Below are positions 2,806 through 34,806 of a stretch of DNA of 42,509 nucleotides, one piece after another. The stretch is taken from positions 1 through 42,509 of the IMG/VR virus record IMGVR_UViG_3300046533_000705. One strand, 5' to 3'. The notes below the pieces were generated by a model that saw only the letters and a program-made list of their open reading frames with translations, had not been told where the DNA came from and searched no databases. The first letter of the stretch is position 1, and each line of letters starts with the position of its first letter. This DNA comes from a virus. Made by a program: the position numbers and the translations under genes.

Positions 2806-4343
2806 CACTGAGTCTCCGGCACGTAGGTGGTTCCGTTCCAAACTCCGACGCCCTGCTTGAACTGCTTGCGGTCACCGATTTTGGGATCGCCGGGAAACGG
2901 TTGCGGTGCTGTAGGCCCCGCGCGGGTTTGGGCCACGGCCCCCTTGCTGGTCTGGACCTCTTTCCATAGTTGCCTTGCCTGAACCTCATATGCCGCTTGG
3001 CTTGTCGCCTTGCTGAGAAGGCCTTCTGCCTTTGCTTCCAGTCTTTCTGTGACGCGAGGCTGGCCAGTTGGGTTCATGGCTCGGGCGTAGGCGTTGGTCA
3101 GAGCGAAATTGTTGGTCAAGAATTCATTATATGCTGGATCGCTGGTTCCCGCTTGCCAGCCCTGTATCAACTGATTAAGCGGAACAAATTTGCCGCGCGG
3201 TAGTTTCTTGGAACTCTCAATAGCAAGCGGAACCAACCCGGCGACTTCATTGCTGGCACTCTCTACCCTCGCCGCCTGCGTTCCTCCGGCTCGTTGGTAG
3301 GAGACCTCACCGCCATAATCCTGGTCAATCTTGGCCTGCTTGGTTCCGTCAATGCCTTGTTCTCCGGCGACCCTTTCGTAGATATCCAAAGCCAGCTTCT
3401 TGCTGTTGGGATTTAGCCCGTTAAATGCTGCTTTGTCTCCAGCAATACGGCGCTGGACAACCGGCAGCAAAGAAACCTCAGACGCTGCCCTCCGTTGTTC
3501 CATCCTGTCGTTTACTGCATCAATAGCCAACTTCATCCGCTCAGAACGGTCCTTTATCTGTTCGTTGACCTGGAAAATGTGCTCGTAGGTCTGGGCAGAC
3601 TTTTCCCAGTGGTTCATGTTCTGCGTGTTGAACATAATTTCGTCTTGGAATTGCGCGGCGACCAGTTTTATCTCCTCCCGTTTCTGATCCATGGTCATCT
3701 TCTGGTCTTCCAAAATGGCTCTGTACTGATCCATTTTGGACTGGTTGTCCTCCAGCATCTTCTTGTTGGCTATCTCCCACTCTTTGGTCTGCTGCTGGAA
3801 CACCTCCTCGTTGCCCTCGGCGTAGCCCTTCATGGCGCCGCCGAATGCGGCCATGGTGGTGGTGGCGTTGGAGCGGCCGAGCGCACCGGCGAGACCGGCG
3901 AACACCGACATGATGCCCATGTACTCCATGCCGCCGCCCTTGATGAACGGGTTCTCGGGGGGCGGAGGAGCCTTCTGCAGTTGGCCGAGTTGCGGCCGTG
4001 GCTGATTCAACTTTCTCTCATAGTCCGCATAGAGAGGGTCAAGCCTCTTCTTCCGCTCCGCTTCCAATGCCTCGTTCTTTCCCTGTAGAGCGTCGGACTT
4101 ATCCGTATCGCTCTGAATCCTGTCGATAATCCTCTGCTGGCTCTTCTGGTATGCGTCGTCCTCGCCGCTGGTTGGAGTGGCATCGGCCATGGCGTCGGCC
4201 GCATCCCCGGAAATGCCGGTCGGTGTTTTCGCCGTTTCCGGGTTCAACCACGGCGGCCTGGTCCCATCGGCAAACGCTTGCGGTGGTGCGGGCTTGAAGG
4301 CCGCCGGGTCGGTCAGGGCGTCGAAATCGGGATAGTCGGCCAT
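2805..4343 (-). CDS. Virion-associated coiled-coil protein
   Basis: This is a 512-residue product. The first 130 residues are Pro/Ala/Asp-rich with charged helices. A glycine/methionine-rich hydrophobic patch at about 135-175 (GGGMEYMGIMSVFAGLAGAL) follows, then a long charged coiled-coil region with many Gln, Glu and Lys (QQQTKEWEIANKKMLEDN). The C-terminal third (after FVPLNQLIQGW) looks globular. A similar arrangement of helical rods around a membrane-active patch occurs in podovirus internal proteins. The stop shares its last base with the next ATG (TGATG), so the operon is translationally linked. No family name or enzyme motif was recognised. Confidence 0.65.
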   Translation of the reverse strand: MADYPDFDALTDPAAFKPAPPQAFADGTRPPWLNPETAKTPTGISGDAADAMADATPTSGEDDAYQKSQQRIIDRIQSDTDKSDALQGKNEALEAERKKRLDPLYADYERKLNQPRPQLGQLQKAPPPPENPFIKGGGMEYMGIMSVFAGLAGALGRSNATTTMAAFGGAMKGYAEGNEEVFQQQTKEWEIANKKMLEDNQSKMDQYRAILEDQKMTMDQKREEIKLVAAQFQDEIMFNTQNMNHWEKSAQTYEHIFQVNEQIKDRSERMKLAIDAVNDRMEQRRAASEVSLLPVVQRRIAGDKAAFNGLNPNSKKLALDIYERVAGEQGIDGTKQAKIDQDYGGEVSYQRAGGTQAARVESASNEVAGLVPLAIESSKKLPRGKFVPLNQLIQGWQAGTSDPAYNEFLTNNFALTNAYARAMNPTGQPRVTERLEAKAEGLLSKATSQAAYEVQARQLWKEVQTSKGAVAQTRAGPTAPQPFPGDPKIGDRKQFKQGVGVWNGTTYVPETQ

Positions 4344-5840: not shown

Positions 5841-8237
5841 CTATACGTTGTTCAGGGCCGCGAGAACATCAGGTGGCAGCGACAGCGGGCCGCCGGGTCG
5901 GGGAGGCGGAGCATAGAGGCCCTGCTCGGGATTGAAATTGCCGGCCGGATTGCCCTCGTCGCCCAAGAGCGGGTTCTGGAACGGGATGGCCGCCGTGTTT
6001 CCGGTCACGGCGGGCGTGGTGGCATTGGTCGTGGTGACATCGCCGCCCGGTATCGGCTGGATCAGTTGCGAGGCGAGCGGGATGCCGGCCCCCGGCGCAT
6101 TGCCGCCCCCGGGTCCGCCAGTGTCACCCTTATCCAGCGCAGACGCGGCGTCAGGACTGAGGCTAGGCGTGCTGGCCTGCTGGGTGTCGGCCGGGCCTCC
6201 CCCCTGGACAGTTGGGGCCGGGCCAGCAGCAGGCTTGGTATCGGGCGTGGGACCGGGAGCTGGTGCAGGCGCGGGTCCGGCCGCCGCATCAATCTCGTTG
6301 AACCCTCCGCTGGCTATCTTGACGTTTGGGGCGGGAACTGCGGTTGGATCTGGAGTTCCGGCAACGACCGATGTCGCAACCGGCTTGCCCCCGGAAAACG
6401 GCTCTACTCCAGGCAGGGAGGCGTCACCAATTAGAGAACTAAACGCCACGTCCTTCGTCGGCCCGCCCGGTGCTACGGTAGTCGTGGCAACCTTGTTCTC
6501 CTGACTTTCAGGCGTGAGGTTGCCGCCTTGTAGCCCCTGAGATGGGTTATTCAGGCCGGGAAGATTCTCCAAGCCGGGAAGAGTGCTGGTGGCATCAGCC
6601 AATCTGGGGTCTCCCAAGAAGTCACCCTTGGTTACGCCGAGTGACGGAAGTTGATTGCCCTCCGCTATTGAGGCCGGCACTGGACCACTATCAGGAAACA
6701 TTCCCGCCTGAAGTTGTTCATTGAACGACGATGTGGCTGCAGGAATGGTTACATCGTTGAAGCCCTCCATCGTTTCAAATCCAGGGCGTTGAGTCCCCGG
6801 AACTATTGCAGGCGCGGGGGCGCTGGTCGGCTGGCCATCGACCTCAATCCCGAGGATGCTCGTGCCGGGGCCGAAGTCGTTACCTGCGAGTTTCATATTC
6901 ATGTTGGAAGGAACACCAGCCATGTTTGCCGGGGGACCTTCGTTGATGCCGCCGGGCACCGGAGCAGGCTGATCCGGGGTCGGCGCATCGTCAGGAAGCG
7001 GGCTGGTGTCCTCGGCGGCCTGTGCCTTCGCCATTCCCTGCTGCGCCGCGAGGATTGCCTCCTCCCCGGTCTGGGCGGGCTGTCCTATCTGGTCGGCCGC
7101 GACCGTCCCCGCCACCGGGCCGCCGAGCGAGGCAAGGCCAGATGGTCCTTGATTGCTGACGCCGGGCTGACCTCCAGGTTGTGGAGCATTCTCCGGTTGA
7201 TTGGATGGATGACTCCCCGGCAACCCGAACGGAGCCTCTGGTTCATTACCAGGCTCGGTTGGCTTGAGTTGGTCCGAAGTCAACCGATTAGCCGGGTCCA
7301 TCGCTATGGTGGCCTGGTCGATAATGTTGTTGCTGCTCAAGTTACCGCCGGCAACACCAGCCGGCAGGCCAGACGGCGTAGCCGCTCCAGGATTCGTTGA
7401 TGCAGCCTGACCGAGCGCCTGCGAAACAGGCGTGTCCCCGGAAAGAGCGGACGCTAGATTTCCCGCTCCGACGACGCTGCCCGCAGCAGGAGCTTTCCCG
7501 AGGCCCGGCGCCTGGTCGAGCATGGCCGCCGCATCGGTAGAGAGGCCGCCCGCCTGCGAGACATTGGCCGCCGGGCCAACCGCCGCATTGTCGGTCGTGG
7601 CGGTCGTCCTGGAATCGGGACCAAAGGCACCGAAGTCGTTGATGTCGTCGCGGGTGGGCTGGGCGGTCGCATCGGGGCCACCGGCCCCAAAATCTCTGGT
7701 GGAGCCGTCCAACGATGGACTTTGGTCGCCGCCGGTAGGGTCGGAACCTACGGCACCGCTGTCCGCCGGCCCGCCACCGCCGTCAGCCGAAGTTCCCTGC
7801 GTTCCACCCGTCGCATCAGATGCAGGACCACCTCCGCCGTCTTCCCCAGCGGCTGCACCAGCGTCAGAGCCACCACCACCGCCGCCGGGAGACTGATCGC
7901 CACCAGTGGCATCGCCGCCGCCATCGCCACCACCACCTCCGCCGGATTCAGTTCCGCCTCCGTCTCCGCCACCGCCGCCTGCATCACTTCCACCACCGCC
8001 ACCCCCACCTCCGGCGTCGTTCCCACCCCCAGTATCGCCGCCGCTGTCGCCGCCGCTGTCGCCGCCGCCGCCGCCATCATTTCCACCGCCGTCGTTGCCG
8101 CCGCCGTCGCCACCGCCACCGTCTCCGCCGTCGCCGCCGTCTCCGCCGTCTCCGCCATCATCGCCGCTGCATACCATCCAGGACGGTTGCCGGCCCCACA
8201 GCCACAGGTCGAGATGGTCGTCGGTCAATCTGGTCAT
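5841..8237 (-). CDS. Giant glycine/aspartate-rich low-complexity virion protein
   Basis: The product is 798 residues. About 20 ordinary N-terminal residues (MTRLTDDHLDLWLWGRQPSW) are followed by roughly 150 residues of almost pure Gly, Asp, Ser and Asn repeats (GDGGDGGDGGDGG type). The rest is Pro/Gly/Ala/Gln-rich and probably disordered, ending GGPLSLPPDVLAALNNV. Its stop overlaps nothing downstream, but its start overlaps the preceding 116-residue gene by four bases (ATGA). The acidic Gly/Asp stretch could bind calcium or act as a flexible linker, but no exact RTX nonapeptide (GGXGXDXUX) is evident. The role is unknown; a virion component is inferred from operon position. Confidence 0.6.
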   Translation of the reverse strand: MTRLTDDHLDLWLWGRQPSWMVCSGDDGGDGGDGGDGGDGGGGDGGGNDGGGNDGGGGGDSGGDSGGDTGGGNDAGGGGGGGGSDAGGGGGDGGGTESGGGGGGDGGGDATGGDQSPGGGGGGSDAGAAAGEDGGGGPASDATGGTQGTSADGGGGPADSGAVGSDPTGGDQSPSLDGSTRDFGAGGPDATAQPTRDDINDFGAFGPDSRTTATTDNAAVGPAANVSQAGGLSTDAAAMLDQAPGLGKAPAAGSVVGAGNLASALSGDTPVSQALGQAASTNPGAATPSGLPAGVAGGNLSSNNIIDQATIAMDPANRLTSDQLKPTEPGNEPEAPFGLPGSHPSNQPENAPQPGGQPGVSNQGPSGLASLGGPVAGTVAADQIGQPAQTGEEAILAAQQGMAKAQAAEDTSPLPDDAPTPDQPAPVPGGINEGPPANMAGVPSNMNMKLAGNDFGPGTSILGIEVDGQPTSAPAPAIVPGTQRPGFETMEGFNDVTIPAATSSFNEQLQAGMFPDSGPVPASIAEGNQLPSLGVTKGDFLGDPRLADATSTLPGLENLPGLNNPSQGLQGGNLTPESQENKVATTTVAPGGPTKDVAFSSLIGDASLPGVEPFSGGKPVATSVVAGTPDPTAVPAPNVKIASGGFNEIDAAAGPAPAPAPGPTPDTKPAAGPAPTVQGGGPADTQQASTPSLSPDAASALDKGDTGGPGGGNAPGAGIPLASQLIQPIPGGDVTTTNATTPAVTGNTAAIPFQNPLLGDEGNPAGNFNPEQGLYAPPPRPGGPLSLPPDVLAALNNV
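7885..8165. repeat. Trinucleotide-like low-complexity tract encoding Gly/Asp repeats
   Basis: On the plus strand the DNA is an imperfect run of ccgccg/ccgtcg/ccacc triplets, which on the coding strand reads GGN and GAY codons. It encodes the Gly/Asp/Asn/Ser repeats near the N-terminus of the 798-residue protein. Such tracts are prone to slippage, so the copy number may vary between isolates or be mis-assembled. Confidence 0.7.
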
Positions 8238-13209: not shown

Positions 13210-14217
13210 TTAGATGTTCAGGAAGGCGATGTTGTCGAACTTGCCGTGGGCCTTGCATTTCACGTCCACCATCTCCAGAAGCGTCAGCAACGCTCCGAGA
13301 TAGCCGAACTGGCCGTTGGCGAGCGTCGATTCAAAGCCGGTGAAGTGGAAGGAAGCCCGCTCATGGACGTAGAGCGAGAGGTAGTCGGTGTTCAGGAGAT
13401 AGAGGACCCCTTCAGGACAATAAGGGTCAGGATAGAACGGAACGCCTGCTACATCGAGGGCGCGGAACAGGGCCTCGACCTTGCCCTCGCCGAACGCCTG
13501 GTTGGGTGTAACCACATAGCGTTCATTCGGTGTGAAATCCTGTGCGAGGTTGGTCCAGGTGCCGAACCCCATCAACCCCATCTTGGGAATTTCGCCCGTC
13601 ACCTTCGTAACCTGGCTGATGTACTGGAGCATCAGGTTGCGGGTTGGGGTGGTGGGCGACCCGTTGTGGACGTAGGTGGATTTCCAGAAAGTATTGTTGG
13701 GACGGGATAGCCCGCCGTAGGTGGCCGCAAAGGTGCCGTCATCAACCGCCGCCGGCAGCCCGATCATCGACTGCGTGTTGGCAATGTTGTTGTACATGTC
13801 GGTCGAGAACCGATCCAACGTCACGTTGGTGGCGTCGTTCATGCGCGCCTCAATCAGCGGCACGACGCTGTAGTCCAACTGCACCAGGCCCTCCATCCCC
13901 AAGAAGGGGATGGCCGTGAGATAACCCTTGAGGTTGAACTCGGCGTTCTGCAGGCCCGGCGTCACACCCGGCTGGTTGAAGCTACCATCATACCCAATAT
14001 TTTGAATGGTAACCATCGGATTTCCCTGTAAAGGAACAGTAATAGGGGATAATCCGCCTGACGCAACCTGTGCATGACTAAGCATAGCCGCCATCCACGG
14101 CGTACTCTTCCAGAGTTGAATGAAAACTTTTGGCAAAAATGCCCTTCTGGTAATCGCCGCCAATTCTGCTGCTATGGCACCCTGTGCCGGTATTACGCCT
14201 TGGCCAAATTGCGGCAA
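13210..14217 (-). CDS. Major capsid protein
   Basis: The product is 335 residues, a usual length for HK97-fold coat proteins without a large accessory domain. It begins MPQFGQGVIPAQGAIAAELA and contains TRRAFLPKVFIQLWKSTPW, LDRFSTDMYNNIANTQS and the C-terminal LVDVKCKAHGKF-type region (read here as LEMVDVKCKAHGKFDNIAF). The gene follows the scaffold-like gene and precedes decoration and adaptor genes, the standard order of a phage head module. No maturation protease was found, and the coat has no obvious cleaved N-terminal delta domain. Some codons just inside the start are less GC-rich than those of the neighbours. Confidence 0.8.
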   Translation of the reverse strand: MPQFGQGVIPAQGAIAAELAAITRRAFLPKVFIQLWKSTPWMAAMLSHAQVASGGLSPITVPLQGNPMVTIQNIGYDGSFNQPGVTPGLQNAEFNLKGYLTAIPFLGMEGLVQLDYSVVPLIEARMNDATNVTLDRFSTDMYNNIANTQSMIGLPAAVDDGTFAATYGGLSRPNNTFWKSTYVHNGSPTTPTRNLMLQYISQVTKVTGEIPKMGLMGFGTWTNLAQDFTPNERYVVTPNQAFGEGKVEALFRALDVAGVPFYPDPYCPEGVLYLLNTDYLSLYVHERASFHFTGFESTLANGQFGYLGALLTLLEMVDVKCKAHGKFDNIAFLNI

Positions 14218-22216: not shown

Positions 22217-22625
22217 GCTCTGACCCCTTGAGCAGCGGCACGTCGACGGTGCAGTGGTCGTCGGTCTCAAGGCCCAAAGCCTTGGCCAAGCCGGGACTGA
22301 GGTCGCAGATGCGGCCGGTATCCACATTGGGTCCCCAGTCGACCGGGCGGGCGGCCAGCATCTTGTTGTTGGCACTGACCTGCACCTTGATGGTCTGCAG
22401 ATAGGAGCGCGGAGTGACGGAATAGTTCCAGCGCATGGCGATGTAGTGCGAGGTGGGATCGAGGCGCCGCGCCAATCCGGTGGTGCCGGCCGGCTGTTTC
22501 GGAAGGAAGTAGCCGGCGAACTTGTTGATTTCGGACGGCTCGCACAGCGCGAGGCCCTCGGACGGGGAGACGCCGGTGTCGTGCGGCCCCCCGAAGGTGG
22601 ACATCTTGCCGGAGAAGGAGGTCAT
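22206..22625 (-). CDS. Double-psi beta-barrel (RlpA-like) protein, candidate lysis enzyme
   Basis: The product is 139 residues from the ATG at 22625, which overlaps the holin-like gene's stop (ATGA). The segments VDWGP at 95-99 and GRICDLSPGLAKALGL at 104-119 match the DRGP and GRxIDLSxxAAxxLG signature of the RlpA-like double-psi beta-barrel. In RlpA this fold cleaves or binds peptidoglycan. There is no signal peptide, so export would need the holin. It is the best candidate for a lysis enzyme in this genome, where no other endolysin was recognised. Confidence 0.6.
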   Translation of the reverse strand: MTSFSGKMSTFGGPHDTGVSPSEGLALCEPSEINKFAGYFLPKQPAGTTGLARRLDPTSHYIAMRWNYSVTPRSYLQTIKVQVSANNKMLAARPVDWGPNVDTGRICDLSPGLAKALGLETDDHCTVDVPLLKGSEHGA

Positions 22626-22858
22626 CGCAGGCTGCCGCCAAACGGGCCGCCGACGTGGATGCCGGCGAAGCCGAGCATGGTGGCGATGACGTACAGCACC
22701 ACCACCAGGATGATGAACGCCAGGATGATCTGGATGAAGGTCATAAACGGCTGGCCGATGTAGGGGGAGATCAGCGGGAACAGCTTGCCGACCACGGCCC
22801 ACCAGACGAAACCGATGATGATACAGAGAAAGATGAGGCCGACGAGGGTGCCGATCAT
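22622..22858 (-). CDS. Holin-like protein with two transmembrane helices
   Basis: The product is 78 residues with transmembrane helices at about 4-26 (TLVGLIFLCIIIGFVWWAVV) and 40-64 (TFIQIILAFIILVVVLYVIA), and a short glycine-rich tail. Length and two-helix topology fit a class II holin. Its stop overlaps the start of the double-psi barrel gene (ATGA), consistent with a holin/lysis-enzyme pair. Function is inferred from topology and neighbours. Confidence 0.55.
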   Translation of the reverse strand: MIGTLVGLIFLCIIIGFVWWAVVGKLFPLISPYIGQPFMTFIQIILAFIILVVVLYVIATMLGFAGIHVGGPFGGSLR

Positions 22859-23011: not shown

Positions 23012-23090
23012 TCAACTCATTATACATAGGGCGCGAGGCTCGCCCGGCGTCCAGTGCGCTCATCTGTCAACTGGTTCGCACTTTCTGTCA
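23012..23090 (-). promoter_or_regulatory. Candidate late promoter: perfect TATAAT, no -35, upstream TGTCA pair
   Basis: Read leftward, TATAAT lies at 23024-23019, with the start codon of the first late gene 24 bases downstream. No -35 hexamer is found at 16-18 bases. Two TGTCA half-sites, at 23065-23069 and 23086-23090, are spaced 21 bases (two helical turns) apart and share the context CTGTCA. This fits an activator-dependent late promoter, possibly using the TGTCA-binding regulator or the GcrA homologue. The rest of the 22996-23377 gap holds no confident gene. Confidence 0.5.
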
Positions 23091-23264
23091 GATGCGGGCC
23101 GCTTCTGGCGGTAAATTCGCGGCCTAATCGCGCGATATTGCCGCAAGCATTGATTTATAAGGTATTTTTTTCTATGAAATTCGCGGATATGGTCGATTAT
23201 TTCGCGGGCTCGTTGGGTTTCCTGCCGCGTTTCTGTGCCCCGGCGGAGCGCATTTTCACAAAGT

Positions 23265-23313
23265 GGCCCGCCGGGCGGGATGCCGATGGATGGCGGTATC
23301 ATCCCGGCGGGCC
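23265..23313. other. Strong GC-rich hairpin between the early-left and late operons
   Basis: GGCCCGCCGGG (+CGG bulge) GATG pairs with CATCCCGGCGGGCC: 14 base pairs with a three-base bulge and a 17-base loop. It lies 65 bases downstream of the PEP-CTERM gene stop and ahead of the late promoter. No U tract follows on either strand, so it is not a textbook terminator, but it could mark the end of the early-left transcript. Confidence 0.5.
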
Positions 23314-23342
23314 TGTACGCTGACGGAGCGGGAAGCAACGTC

Positions 23343-23383
23343 AGCCTACTCTTGCACTACGCAAGCCTACTCTTGCACTACGC
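23343..23383. repeat. Two tandem 20-base copies at the end of the PEP-CTERM gene
   Basis: The 20-mer AGCCTACTCTTGCACTACGC is present twice with a 21-base period. The second copy includes the stop codon of the PEP-CTERM gene at 23378-23380. It is probably a local duplication. Confidence 0.65.
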
Positions 23384-24073
23384 CACGCCACACTGTTTGC
23401 GGAGGCTTCGCACCAAGCCACCCAAACCAAGCAACCCGGCCGCAAACAAGCCAAGAGCGCCCGGCAGCGGTGTTTGCGCCAAGGTGGCGTCGAAGTTCCG
23501 CAGCAGCACGTTGGCGTTGCAGCCGGAGCCGCACTGGTTGACCCCAAGGCCGCTGTAGAAGAACAGGTAGTTGTCGTAGTTGCCGGCCAGGGAGTGGAAG
23601 CCTTCTTGCCCGCCGGGATCGGTGGAACTGGCGAGCAGGTTCGCCAGGCTGAACGGGTCACCGTCCTGCGTACCGTACACCCTCCAGCCTTCGTTCTGGG
23701 TCGTGGAACCCATTTGGAACGTGAAGCCGTCGGGAGTGAGGAATTGCAGGATGTCGGTCAGGTGGATTTCAATGAAGTTACCGCCGGTGATTTCGTGATC
23801 GCCGGAGGTGTCGTTGGCGAGGCCGAGGCCGTTCTCGTCGCCGCCGCCGTTCTTGCCGTACAAGGCGGTGCCGGCATCGCTCGACGTGAAGCCTCGGGCG
23901 GTGAGGTTAAGCCCGCCTGCGGTGAAAGTCTGCGTGTTGGGCAGCGCGCCGAGATGGTCCTGGAAGTTCCAGTCCAGGACAGCGGCCGAGGCCGGTACTG
24001 ATAGCGCCGCCAGAGCCGTGAAGACAGCTGTGAACAGCCTGATGTTGGCGGTCGTGGCAAGTAGATGTCTCAT
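23378..24073 (-). CDS. PEP-CTERM/VPLPA-like sorted exoprotein
   Basis: The product is 231 residues. A signal peptide (about 1-30, ending SVPASA) is followed by a Gly/Asn/Thr-rich secreted domain beginning AVLDWNFQDHLGALPNTQTF, with two cysteines near 181-185. The C-terminus has the sorting pattern PLPGAL at 202-207, a hydrophobic helix FAAGLLGLGGLV, then RSLRK. This matches PEP-CTERM sorting domains processed by exosortases, including the VPLPA variant of alphaproteobacteria. AGGA lies seven bases before the ATG. It is the last gene of the early-left cluster. A phage copy of a host surface protein, acquired by transfer, is likely; the host must supply the exosortase. Confidence 0.8.
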   Translation of the reverse strand: MRHLLATTANIRLFTAVFTALAALSVPASAAVLDWNFQDHLGALPNTQTFTAGGLNLTARGFTSSDAGTALYGKNGGGDENGLGLANDTSGDHEITGGNFIEIHLTDILQFLTPDGFTFQMGSTTQNEGWRVYGTQDGDPFSLANLLASSTDPGGQEGFHSLAGNYDNYLFFYSGLGVNQCGSGCNANVLLRNFDATLAQTPLPGALGLFAAGLLGLGGLVRSLRKQCGVA

Positions 24074-24082
24074 TGTAGTATC

Positions 24083-24274
24083 CTATGGTTCAATTGTTGC
24101 CCCTAATGACTTGTCTTCGGCAGCATCAGGACTTGCCGTATCTTGAGGGCGCTCGTCGTAGTCGAGGCTATCGAAAGTCCCGTCCTTGAATGCCAAGAAC
24201 AACGTGCCCCATTTGACGTCCTTCCACGTCTTGCCTTCCGGCAGGTGGAAGCGTTCGATGCCAGTATCAATCAT
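24083..24274 (-). CDS. Small protein upstream of the PEP-CTERM gene, 63 aa
   Basis: The product starts MIDTGIERFHLPEGKTWKDV and ends EDKSLGATIEP. The centre (KWGTLFLAFKDGTFDSLDYD) looks like a small beta sheet; the last 20 residues are acidic and probably disordered. No cysteines or membrane segment are present. It lies nine bases before the PEP-CTERM gene and may be cotranslated with it. No family was recognised. Confidence 0.5.
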   Translation of the reverse strand: MIDTGIERFHLPEGKTWKDVKWGTLFLAFKDGTFDSLDYDERPQDTASPDAAEDKSLGATIEP

Positions 24275-24295: not shown

Positions 24296-25012
24296 TCATG
24301 TGCGCCCCGGTTCTTGCGAGAAGTCGAAGGGCTTGGCCCATATATCGTGCCAATCCTCTTGCTTCGCAGGCTTCGGCTTCTCGATAAACAAGTCTGGCTG
24401 CTTCATCGCCTCATCGATGCGCCGGCACGCGATGTCGAAATACTTCGGCTCGATCTCGATACCGATGAAACGGCGGCCGAGCTTGACGGCGGCAACGCCA
24501 GTGGTGCCAGAGCCCATGAAGGGGTCGAGAATGGTGCTGGCGTTAGGGAGAAACCCAAGACACCATTTCATCAACGCAATCGGTTTTTGAGTTGGATGCC
24601 ATTTGCCGTCGCCAGTTGGGGTCAATTCAGAATGTGCAAGGGATAAAGCGCGAACTGGTTGATCGAGCGTGCTCCATGCGAACTCGCAATGCCCGCTCGT
24701 GAAGTTGCGAACAATCTTGTCCCAAACCAACCAACCTCGGGTGGGCGGAAGCGCATAAAGATGGCCGCCCCAAATGACGGCATGAGTGGCGATGCTCGGA
24801 AGCTCTAGAACATAATCGACCGTACATGCGTCCCAGGCCATGCCGTCTTGGTGGTGGAGCGGCCATTTAGCTTTCCCGCCTTGCCACTTGTCGCCCAAAC
24901 CATACGGCGGGTCTGTCACCACGGCATCGACCTTGCCCAGCGTCGGCAATATCTCCCGGCAGTCGCCGAGATACAGCGTCACGCCTTCCGCTAGGTGCTC
25001 AATCCGGCTCAA
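24296..25012 (-). CDS. DNA adenine/cytosine-N4 methyltransferase (beta class order)
   Basis: The product is 238 residues. The catalytic motif IV DPPY is at 34-37 and the AdoMet motif I DPFMGSGTTG at 163-172, in the order of beta-class DNA methyltransferases; HPTQKP at 139-144 is the usual motif X region before motif I. It starts with TTG at 25012, with GAGG eight bases upstream. It probably methylates adenine-N6 (or cytosine-N4) and may protect phage DNA from restriction or affect regulation. It lacks the C-terminal extension of CcrM, so the recognition site cannot be stated. No restriction enzyme gene is adjacent. Confidence 0.9.
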   Translation of the reverse strand: MSRIEHLAEGVTLYLGDCREILPTLGKVDAVVTDPPYGLGDKWQGGKAKWPLHHQDGMAWDACTVDYVLELPSIATHAVIWGGHLYALPPTRGWLVWDKIVRNFTSGHCEFAWSTLDQPVRALSLAHSELTPTGDGKWHPTQKPIALMKWCLGFLPNASTILDPFMGSGTTGVAAVKLGRRFIGIEIEPKYFDIACRRIDEAMKQPDLFIEKPKPAKQEDWHDIWAKPFDFSQEPGRT

Positions 25013-33006: not shown

Positions 33007-33055
33007 TGTCAGGGATTGACATAGACCCGCTATGGTGTCATGTCAATATCTGACA
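33007..33055. promoter_or_regulatory. Divergent control region with two TGTCA-N5-TGACA operators
   Basis: TGTCA-GGGAT-TGACA (33007-33021) and TGTCA-ATATC-TGACA (33041-33055) lie 34 bases apart, centre to centre. Between them the sequence is itself an inverted repeat, ATTGACAT (33015-33022) and ATGTCAAT (33040-33047), giving TTGACA on both strands as candidate -35 elements for the repressor (leftward) and the recombination operon (rightward). No good -10 was found on either side, so promoter strength may be low or regulated. Confidence 0.65.
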
Positions 33056-33068
33056 TCGGGAGGCTGCA

Positions 33069-33278
33069 TTGGAGGACAAGAAGGCGGCAAGAAACCTGCG
33101 CAGGGCATTCGACCGCCACTTGGATGCGTGGGAGACCGGCATCGATTTCATCGTCTGCACGGCCATCGTGCTGGGCGTCAGCCGCGAGAACTTCCTCGAA
33201 TTGCTGGCGAACGCCTACGATCATTTCGATGCGGAGAACGAACAACCGGGAAAGGACGCAATCGATGTTGACGGCTGA
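33069..33278 (+). CDS. Small early protein with TTG start, 69 aa
   Basis: The gene starts with TTG at 33069, with a strong GGGAGG five bases upstream, and reads MEDKKAARNLRRAFDRHLDA, then WETGIDFIVCTAIVLGVSRE, NFLELLANAYDHFDAEN. It is helical and acidic at the end. It overlaps the start of the exonuclease gene by 14 bases. Similar small genes often precede phage recombination genes. The function is unknown. Confidence 0.6.
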   Translation: MEDKKAARNLRRAFDRHLDAWETGIDFIVCTAIVLGVSRENFLELLANAYDHFDAENEQPGKDAIDVDG

Positions 33279-34056
33279 ACAGATAGCGGCGCGGCGCGGC
33301 AAGATGACGGCTAGCCGCGTGGGCGTGCTGATGCGCGGCGACCGCGACGGCATCATGCGGCTGTACCGCGAGATGATCGGGGAGGAGATCGAGGAGGACC
33401 TGTCCGATGTCTGGGCCGTGCAATTAGGTATCTGCACCGAACCTCTCTCATTGAATTGGTACGAGAAAAAGAACGGTTATCTGCTCACACGACGGGGGAA
33501 GGTTGTTGTTCATCCGAAGCACGATTGGGCGGCGGCGACGTTGGACGGTTTTGACGAAACACTGAAGTGTTGCGTCGAGGCAAAGCACTGCGGTGGGCGG
33601 GAGCCGATCGACCCTGTGCTGATGGACCGCTATGCGCCCCAATGCCACTGGCAGATGTGGGTGACCAACACCCAGGTCTGCGCCTTGTCCATCATCATGG
33701 GGGCGAACGAGCCCATTGTCGAATACATCGACCGGGACGATGCCTACATTGCCGAGATGGTGACGCGCGCCGAGAGTTTCATGATGTGTGTGGGGATGCG
33801 GGTGCCGCCGTTCGCGCTTGATGCTGCGCCTCCACCTGAACCTGACCCCACCAAGATTGTGGATATGAGCACTAGCAACAAATGGTGTGATGCGGCGTTC
33901 GAGTGGCTCACTACCAAGGAGGCCGCTGCCAGCAACAAAGACAGCGAAAAGATATTGAAGGCAATGGTTGACAGCGATGTAAAAAAGGCATTCGGGGCAG
34001 GCTGCAGGATAACCAGAGACAGGGCGGGGCGACTCAGCCTCAGAGAGGACAAATAG
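33265..34056 (+). CDS. YqaJ/lambda-type exonuclease
   Basis: The product is 263 residues. Signature elements occur in order: KMTASRVGVLMRG near the start, GICTEPLSLNWYE with E59, ATLDGFDETL with D94, and CVEAKH with E105-x-K107, the catalytic set of the YqaJ/lambda-exonuclease family (PD-(D/E)xK). It degrades one strand of double-stranded DNA 5' to 3' to expose ssDNA for the annealing protein encoded next. The start ATG at 33265 follows GGGAAAGGA. It lacks any fused domain. Confidence 0.85.
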   Translation: MLTAEQIAARRGKMTASRVGVLMRGDRDGIMRLYREMIGEEIEEDLSDVWAVQLGICTEPLSLNWYEKKNGYLLTRRGKVVVHPKHDWAAATLDGFDETLKCCVEAKHCGGREPIDPVLMDRYAPQCHWQMWVTNTQVCALSIIMGANEPIVEYIDRDDAYIAEMVTRAESFMMCVGMRVPPFALDAAPPPEPDPTKIVDMSTSNKWCDAAFEWLTTKEAAASNKDSEKILKAMVDSDVKKAFGAGCRITRDRAGRLSLREDK

Positions 34057-34806
34057 ATGACTATCCCAATAAAGCAGTCGGCTGCCGAGGACGCCATCGA
34101 GTCGGCCCTGATGCAGGGCGACCTGTCCAAGCTCTCAGCCCCGCAACGGCTGGAGCATTACCGCGCGGTCTGCAAGAGCCTCGGCCTCAATCCGCTCACC
34201 CAGCCGTTCGCCTACATCGTGCTGAACGGCAAGCTGCAGCTCTACGCGCTGCGCAACTGCGCCGACCAGTTGCGGGAACTCAAGAAAGTGTCGCTGCAGA
34301 TCGTCTCGCGCGATGTGGCGGATGGCATTCTCACAATTCATGTGAAGGCCAGCCTGCCGGATGGCCGATGCGACGAGGAATTGGGGGCGGTGCCGTTTCC
34401 CGAGAGCCTCAAGGGCGAGGCCCGCGCCAATGCCGAGTTGAAGTGCATCACCAAGGCCAAGCGGCGGGCCACGCTGTCCATCTGCGGCCTCGGCTGGCTT
34501 TCGGAGGAGGAGGTGGAGTCGATTCCGGGGGCGCGCAAGCCGCCCGAGCCAGGCCCCGATGTCGTGCAGAAGCCGGAGCCCCCGCCGGTCAAGCCGGCCG
34601 CCGAGTTGCTGGAGGCGGCCCGTTCCTTTGCCAAGCGCGGATCGAAGGAGTTCACCGCGTTCTACCGCCCGCTGACGCAGGCGCAGCGCGATGCGCTGGT
34701 GCCGCACGGGGCCGAGTTGCGCGAGCTGATGAACGAGGCCGACGCCGACATCGCTCGCGACGAGGCGGTGGGCGAGCACAATCCCGAAACCGGAGAGGTG
34801 GCGTGA
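34057..34806 (+). CDS. Single-strand annealing protein, RecT/Red-beta-like
   Basis: The product is 249 residues. The block LEHYRAVCKSLGLNPLTQPF, AYIVLNGKLQLYALRNCADQ, LRELKKVSLQIVSRD is a common signature of annealing proteins paired with phage exonucleases; the central KCITKAKRRATLSICGLGWL is also conserved. The C-terminal 90 residues are charged and may recruit SSB or the exonuclease. The gene starts immediately after the exonuclease stop. Together they form a two-component recombination system. Confidence 0.65.
   Translation: MTIPIKQSAAEDAIESALMQGDLSKLSAPQRLEHYRAVCKSLGLNPLTQPFAYIVLNGKLQLYALRNCADQLRELKKVSLQIVSRDVADGILTIHVKASLPDGRCDEELGAVPFPESLKGEARANAELKCITKAKRRATLSICGLGWLSEEEVESIPGARKPPEPGPDVVQKPEPPPVKPAAELLEAARSFAKRGSKEFTAFYRPLTQAQRDALVPHGAELRELMNEADADIARDEAVGEHNPETGEVA

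Follow-up and report, generated by a model that had tools for sequence, protein, structure and literature searches.

Why would a bacteriophage encode a protein with the ends of a sorted bacterial surface protein, and could such a protein be handled by a sorting enzyme of its host? For PEP-CTERM proteins, exosortase has been proposed to recognize a C-terminal tag and to place the protein body at the surface (Haft et al., 2006; PMC1569441). The window, i.e., the whole stretch of 42,509 nucleotides analyzed here, is an IMG/VR virus record (IMGVR_UViG_3300046533_000705) with terminase, portal-like and capsid genes. The gene that raises the question (23378-24073) is encoded by the minus strand, starts at an ATG and is preceded by the ribosome site AGGA; the plus-strand reading of this interval contains stops and was ruled out. 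The features on which the argument draws are the following.

13210..14217, minus strand: major capsid protein (phrog_9953, E 6e-23; 56% to uncultured phage MW202825)
19768..21600, minus strand: terminase large subunit, which marks the window as phage (phrog_2, E 1.2e-9; 43% to MW202825)
22622..22858, minus strand: small membrane ORF, 78 aa, first conserved gene past the cassette (98.7% identical in L007)
23265..23313, minus strand: hairpin downstream of the gene (fold and compensatory changes in other carriers)
23378..24073, minus strand: PEP-CTERM-like phage protein of family A, 231 aa (ORF call, model scores, homologues in 17 IMG/VR loci)
23396..23473, minus strand: predicted C-terminal sorting tag TPLPGALGLFAAGLLGLGGLVRSLRK, residues 201-226 (PF07589 match at residues 200-222; P202, L203 and P204 invariant in family A)
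23474..23980, minus strand: predicted exported, beta-rich body, residues 32-200, with a conserved CGSGC (family A alignment; about ten strands in a model of low confidence, mean pLDDT 52)
23984..24073, minus strand: predicted signal peptide, residues 1-30, MRHLLATTANIRLFTAVFTALAALSVPASA (hydropathy and ASA cleavage-like site; in every full-length homologue)
24083..24274, minus strand: small ORF, 63 aa, directly upstream, ending 9 nt before the family A gene (ORF call)
24296..25012, minus strand: DNA methyltransferase (N6_N4_Mtase), co-oriented early gene (PF01555, E 2.4e-22; phrog_67)

The first-pass annotation had described a signal peptide and a tail made of a PLP motif, a helix and basic residues, and this description is borne out by hydropathy, by the tail itself and by its conservation among homologues. 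Kyte-Doolittle values over 17-residue windows peak at 1.98 at the N-terminus and 1.93 at the C-terminus of the protein and do not exceed 0.69 in the body, which places no transmembrane helix between the signal peptide and the tag. A heuristic hydropathy reading predicts a cleavage-like site between ASA and A after the N-terminal hydrophobic stretch, and at the extreme C-terminus the PLP motif is followed by a hydrophobic helix and a basic cluster. The body contains much G, N, S and T and little K and R. Its AlphaFold model is poor (pLDDT 52), Foldseek pairs it with carbohydrate-binding and gingipain adhesin domains at low TM-scores, and no PDB match was obtained at E<=0.001; we therefore claim no fold for the protein. 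A sequence search of the PDB did not yield a match either.

The tail was expected to match the curated PEP-CTERM and VPLPA-CTERM models, and this expectation held for one homologue but not for the window copy. PF07589 scores the latter at 16.8 bits (E 0.0072), below its gathering score of 20.7, and neither TIGR02595 (cut-off 16 bits) nor TIGR03370 (VPLPA-CTERM, cut-off 25.35 bits) is listed for it, even at E<=10. The window protein is thus not a member of TIGR03370, and a TIGR02595 search of the window's own record gave no match, with the controls equally unmatched. Two further models align with the window copy below their cut-offs, so that it belongs to neither: XDP1 (NF041927; 22.7 bits, E 8e-5, cut-off 125), with a weak likeness in the N-terminal part, and the floc-associated PepA (NF033554; 20.3 bits, E 4e-4, cut-off 80), in the second half and the tag. 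Weak similarity to XDP1 and PepA is seen in several family A members. The family A homologue L002 exceeds the TIGR03370 cut-off (31.4 vs 25.35 bits), L014 and L016 lie slightly below that of TIGR02595 (15.7 vs 16), and two members of a second family introduced below, L046 and L016:7296-7955, exceed it. Taken alone, the window sequence makes a case for sorting that is no more than suggestive.

Family A comprises 17 loci in IMG/VR. In the alignment, all full-length members keep the signal peptide, the body and the tripartite tail; beyond the invariant PLP the tail positions vary, and omega values of about 0.16-0.35 against the window copy indicate purifying selection. Tripartite tails occur in 11 of 574 called ORFs of the carrier phages, where 1.0 is expected after shuffling, and all but one of these (10/11) belong to family members or their neighbors. 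Since the tail is kept in 17 viral loci, omega is low and L002 exceeds the VPLPA-CTERM cut-off, the window tail is more than a chance resemblance. No relatives of family A were found in 84,980 species genomes by a peptide-pattern scan, which detects close relatives only, nor among isolate phages or plasmids.

Similar to PEP-CTERM and VPLPA-CTERM proteins (EpsH, XrtD-type TIGR04152; PMC1569441), the window protein thus combines a signal peptide with a motif, helix and basic C-terminus, has no other transmembrane helix, and has a body with little known homology. In contrast to them, it is encoded by a phage that brings no exosortase of its own, the window copy scores below the cut-offs, no close cellular homologue was found, and tags are swapped between homologues.

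The exchange of tags emerged from a scan for tripartite tails, which identified another tagged protein immediately adjacent to the family A homologue in G016. This protein (L016:7296-7955), which has a signal peptide and is unrelated to its neighbor except for an almost identical VPLPA tail, is the founder of family B (24 viral loci); family C has nine loci, and the tagged proteins often stand in tandem. Head, terminase and replication genes in the family B carriers examined show that these are phages. Between the five tag classes of family B (VPLPATLPLF, VPEPSTWGMM, VPGPxxGAGLPGL, TPLPAALPMF and TPLPGAVWLF), bodies are 49-69% identical and tags 30-47%; the tags of family C are of several classes as well. 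This suggests that a tag may be replaced independently of the body. A family B member with the VPEPSTW tag exceeds the TIGR02595 cut-off (24.2 vs 16 bits), and for the VPGPxxGAGLPGL tags and most TPLP tags no NCBIfam sorting model scores above its cut-off. The second proteins of family C in L053 and L060 match FxDxF PEP-CTERM (NF038126) over most of their length (E 3e-10 and 7e-11); family C, to which the window protein does not belong, aligns with this model nearly end to end, at 42.6 bits under a cut-off of 50.

A VPGPxxGAGLPGL motif followed by a helix and RRRR is present in L042, L043, L049, L053, L054, L056, L059, L060 and L062, and may represent a sorting signal as yet unassigned. A further tandem pair (L085:3007-3576 and 3564-4256) carries VPLPAAVWLF and VPIPGALPLF tags, and its second body represents another family.

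Six phages carry two adjacent tagged proteins with non-homologous bodies. In these phages the tags of the neighbors have a mean identity of 0.66, vs 0.44 for mismatched pairs; 4 of 720 permutations reach the match observed for the neighbors. The tail DNA of the two neighbors is 94% identical over 82 nt in G016, with little identity in L049, L053 and L060, and part of the likeness may result from copying of tails within a phage. The simplest reading of the matched tags is that the tag presumably follows the exosortase of the current host.

These observations bear on the strongest alternative, in which the protein is never sorted: exported by its signal peptide and held in the inner membrane by a C-terminal segment that is simply an anchor, it would act in the periplasm, for instance in lysis or membrane-bound exclusion, independently of exosortase. 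The sub-threshold scores of the window tail, the many tags that match no sorting model above cut-off and the position of the gene near a small membrane ORF and packaging genes would agree with such a role. However, the PLP/PEP motif is kept though the helix diverges, whole tag classes are exchanged and are matched between unrelated neighbors, and some homologues pass the sorting models; as an anchor alone needs neither the motif nor matching tags, we regard this explanation as unlikely. By comparison, exosortase-type sorting of the family A protein appears very likely from the sequence evidence.

An exosortase was not found in any of 31 phage records including the window, several of which are fragments, and a sorted phage protein would depend on the enzyme of the host. 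No carrier contains a tRNA, which might have pointed to that host. For two carrier backbones the nearest isolate phages are phages of Rhizobium; among plasmids, the neighboring methyltransferase is best matched by a Bradyrhizobium plasmid (40%), and the G+C content is around 60%. From these phage relatives, the plasmid match and the G+C content we would guess that the host probably belongs to the Hyphomicrobiales; an alphaproteobacterial host is plausible. The samples that yielded the carriers are, judging from their IMG sample numbers, presumably soils.

Dependence on a host enzyme, with none encoded by the phages, would also suit a protein that, when abundant, merely occupies the host exosortase and thereby reduces surface display by the host or disturbs EPS assembly, the body mattering little. 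Yet purifying selection acts on the body (omega about 0.1-0.35), and the body is better conserved than the tag; it therefore has a job, which makes competition for the enzyme a very unlikely purpose.

The genomic setting is that of accessory cargo. The earlier placement of the gene as the last of an early operon is broadly right: the methyltransferase, the small ORF and the gene are followed by a strong hairpin, the small membrane ORF and the terminase. The tail of the 63-aa ORF recurs upstream of the family A homologue in L012. The hairpin folds with about -33 to -37 kcal/mol in the window, L002, L003, L006, L007 and L011, is similar in L014, and shows a compensatory change between the window (GGCCCG/CGGGCC) and L011 (GGCCCA/UGGGCC). 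It is located 3' of the gene in most family A lineages, in one copy per carrier examined, and may act as a terminator or mark where the cassette ends on its 3' side; it is strong yet lacks a clear U-run. A 92-aa ORF called at 23060-23338 was discarded as an apparent by-product of the hairpin region.

Two other regions of the window deserve mention. On the plus strand, at 34057-34806 and 33040-34056, a YqaJ-type recombinase/exonuclease gene adjoins a conserved 249-aa ORF, and the two (33040-34806) are probably a recombination pair. In the structural region, a 798-aa ORF (5841-8237) has a G/D-rich repeat near its N-terminus (GDDGGDGGDGGDGG) and no Pfam match.

At least five phage backbones carry family A. 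One is shared by the window and L007-L009; another, the G003/G005 and G016 type, has an internal virion protein with its nearest relatives in Rhizobium phages; G013 has a portal 40% identical to Rhizobium phages; and G012 and G002 represent one backbone each. Between L007 and the window, terminase and portal DNA is 94-96% identical and the family A gene about 75-79%; likewise, the 78-aa membrane ORF is nearly unchanged in L007, but the PEP protein is just 70% identical. G026 has a capsid 93% identical to that of the window, with different tagged proteins in place of the family A protein. The window, L007 and G026 therefore share a backbone and differ in cargo, as defines a moron, an accessory gene between conserved modules that varies among sister phages. 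This distribution suggests that phages of different backbones may exchange cassettes of tagged proteins. An integrase is present in the family A carriers G012, G013, G014 and G016 and in the family B carriers G018 and G025; none was detected in the window, G001-G003, G005, G006, G008, G010 or G011. Another exchanged gene, an ORF of about 100 aa, is 90-92% identical between otherwise different carriers (G008:13182-13511, G005:17919-18236 and G013:11474-11776).

Such cargo resembles phage morons and genes for lysogenic conversion or superinfection exclusion, in that it is accessory, lies between conserved modules, is exchanged, carries a 3' hairpin and is accompanied by an integrase in several carriers. 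Unlike morons, the window gene has no convincing promoter of its own, as a promoter scan of the window gave nothing better than shuffled sequence, and morons do not usually rely on a sorting enzyme of the host. The variation in presence, copy and position among sister phages, the lack of a PHROGs match, and a signal peptide and tag that point outward make it highly improbable that the protein is a minor virion or tail protein using signal-like ends in assembly, although it adjoins portal and terminase in G013 and has the weak Foldseek similarities given above. Just as improbable is a recently captured bacterial gene or contaminated contig with no phage role, since the gene, though PEP-CTERM families are otherwise bacterial (PMC1569441), is conserved, is flanked by phage genes in many independent contigs that also contain capsid, portal and terminase genes, and has no close relative in the scanned species genomes or plasmids.

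We therefore return to a phage-encoded substrate of a host exosortase, as the first-pass annotation had proposed; this is strongly supported by the homologues that pass curated models, by a PLP-helix-basic tail that unrelated phages have conserved, and by the exchange of tags seen in families B and C. As read from the sequence, the signal peptide would export the protein and the tail would retain it in the inner membrane. The host exosortase would then recognize the tag and pass the body outward, a step that the model matches and the pattern of tag exchange support. Once displayed, the body might alter the surface, either by hiding receptors or EPS from other phages or by aggregating cells. 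We put the probability that the cargo is a secreted protein processed by the host exosortase, and released to or anchored at the outer surface, at roughly two in three. Of the possible effects, surface masking or superinfection exclusion is put forward tentatively, and an effect on aggregation or biofilm formation of lysogens seems rather unlikely.

Phages alter the surface of their hosts by enzymes, lipoproteins and membrane proteins. In open PubMed Central papers we found no description of phage-encoded PEP-CTERM cargo, bar a passing mention of a related domain: proteins with the putative exosortase interaction domain TIGR03118 occur in Yellowstone virus contigs, among genes transferred to viruses (PMC11003980). 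There these proteins are merely listed, with function unknown, and we found no analysis of tag, host or mechanism. In bacteria, PEP-CTERM proteins have been reported as needed for floc formation in activated sludge (Gao et al., 2018, as cited in PMC12642866; see also PMC9850573).

If sorting by the host takes place as proposed, the exosortase pathway with its body-independent tags would be a new route by which phages change the host surface, and the phage tags would form a natural record of which exosortase recognizes which tag. This would help in predicting the hosts of uncultured soil phages, and would offer a tractable reason for the diversity of PEP-CTERM bodies. It is conceivable, if somewhat speculative, that soil phages carry modular surface cargo, in which several unrelated bodies, often in tandem, are combined with exchangeable tags that suit whichever sorting enzyme the present host has, VPGPxxGAGLPGL being the class for a partner enzyme yet to be assigned. 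If so, the phage would programme the host exosortase to put phage proteins on display, for instance to shield the cell from rival phages.
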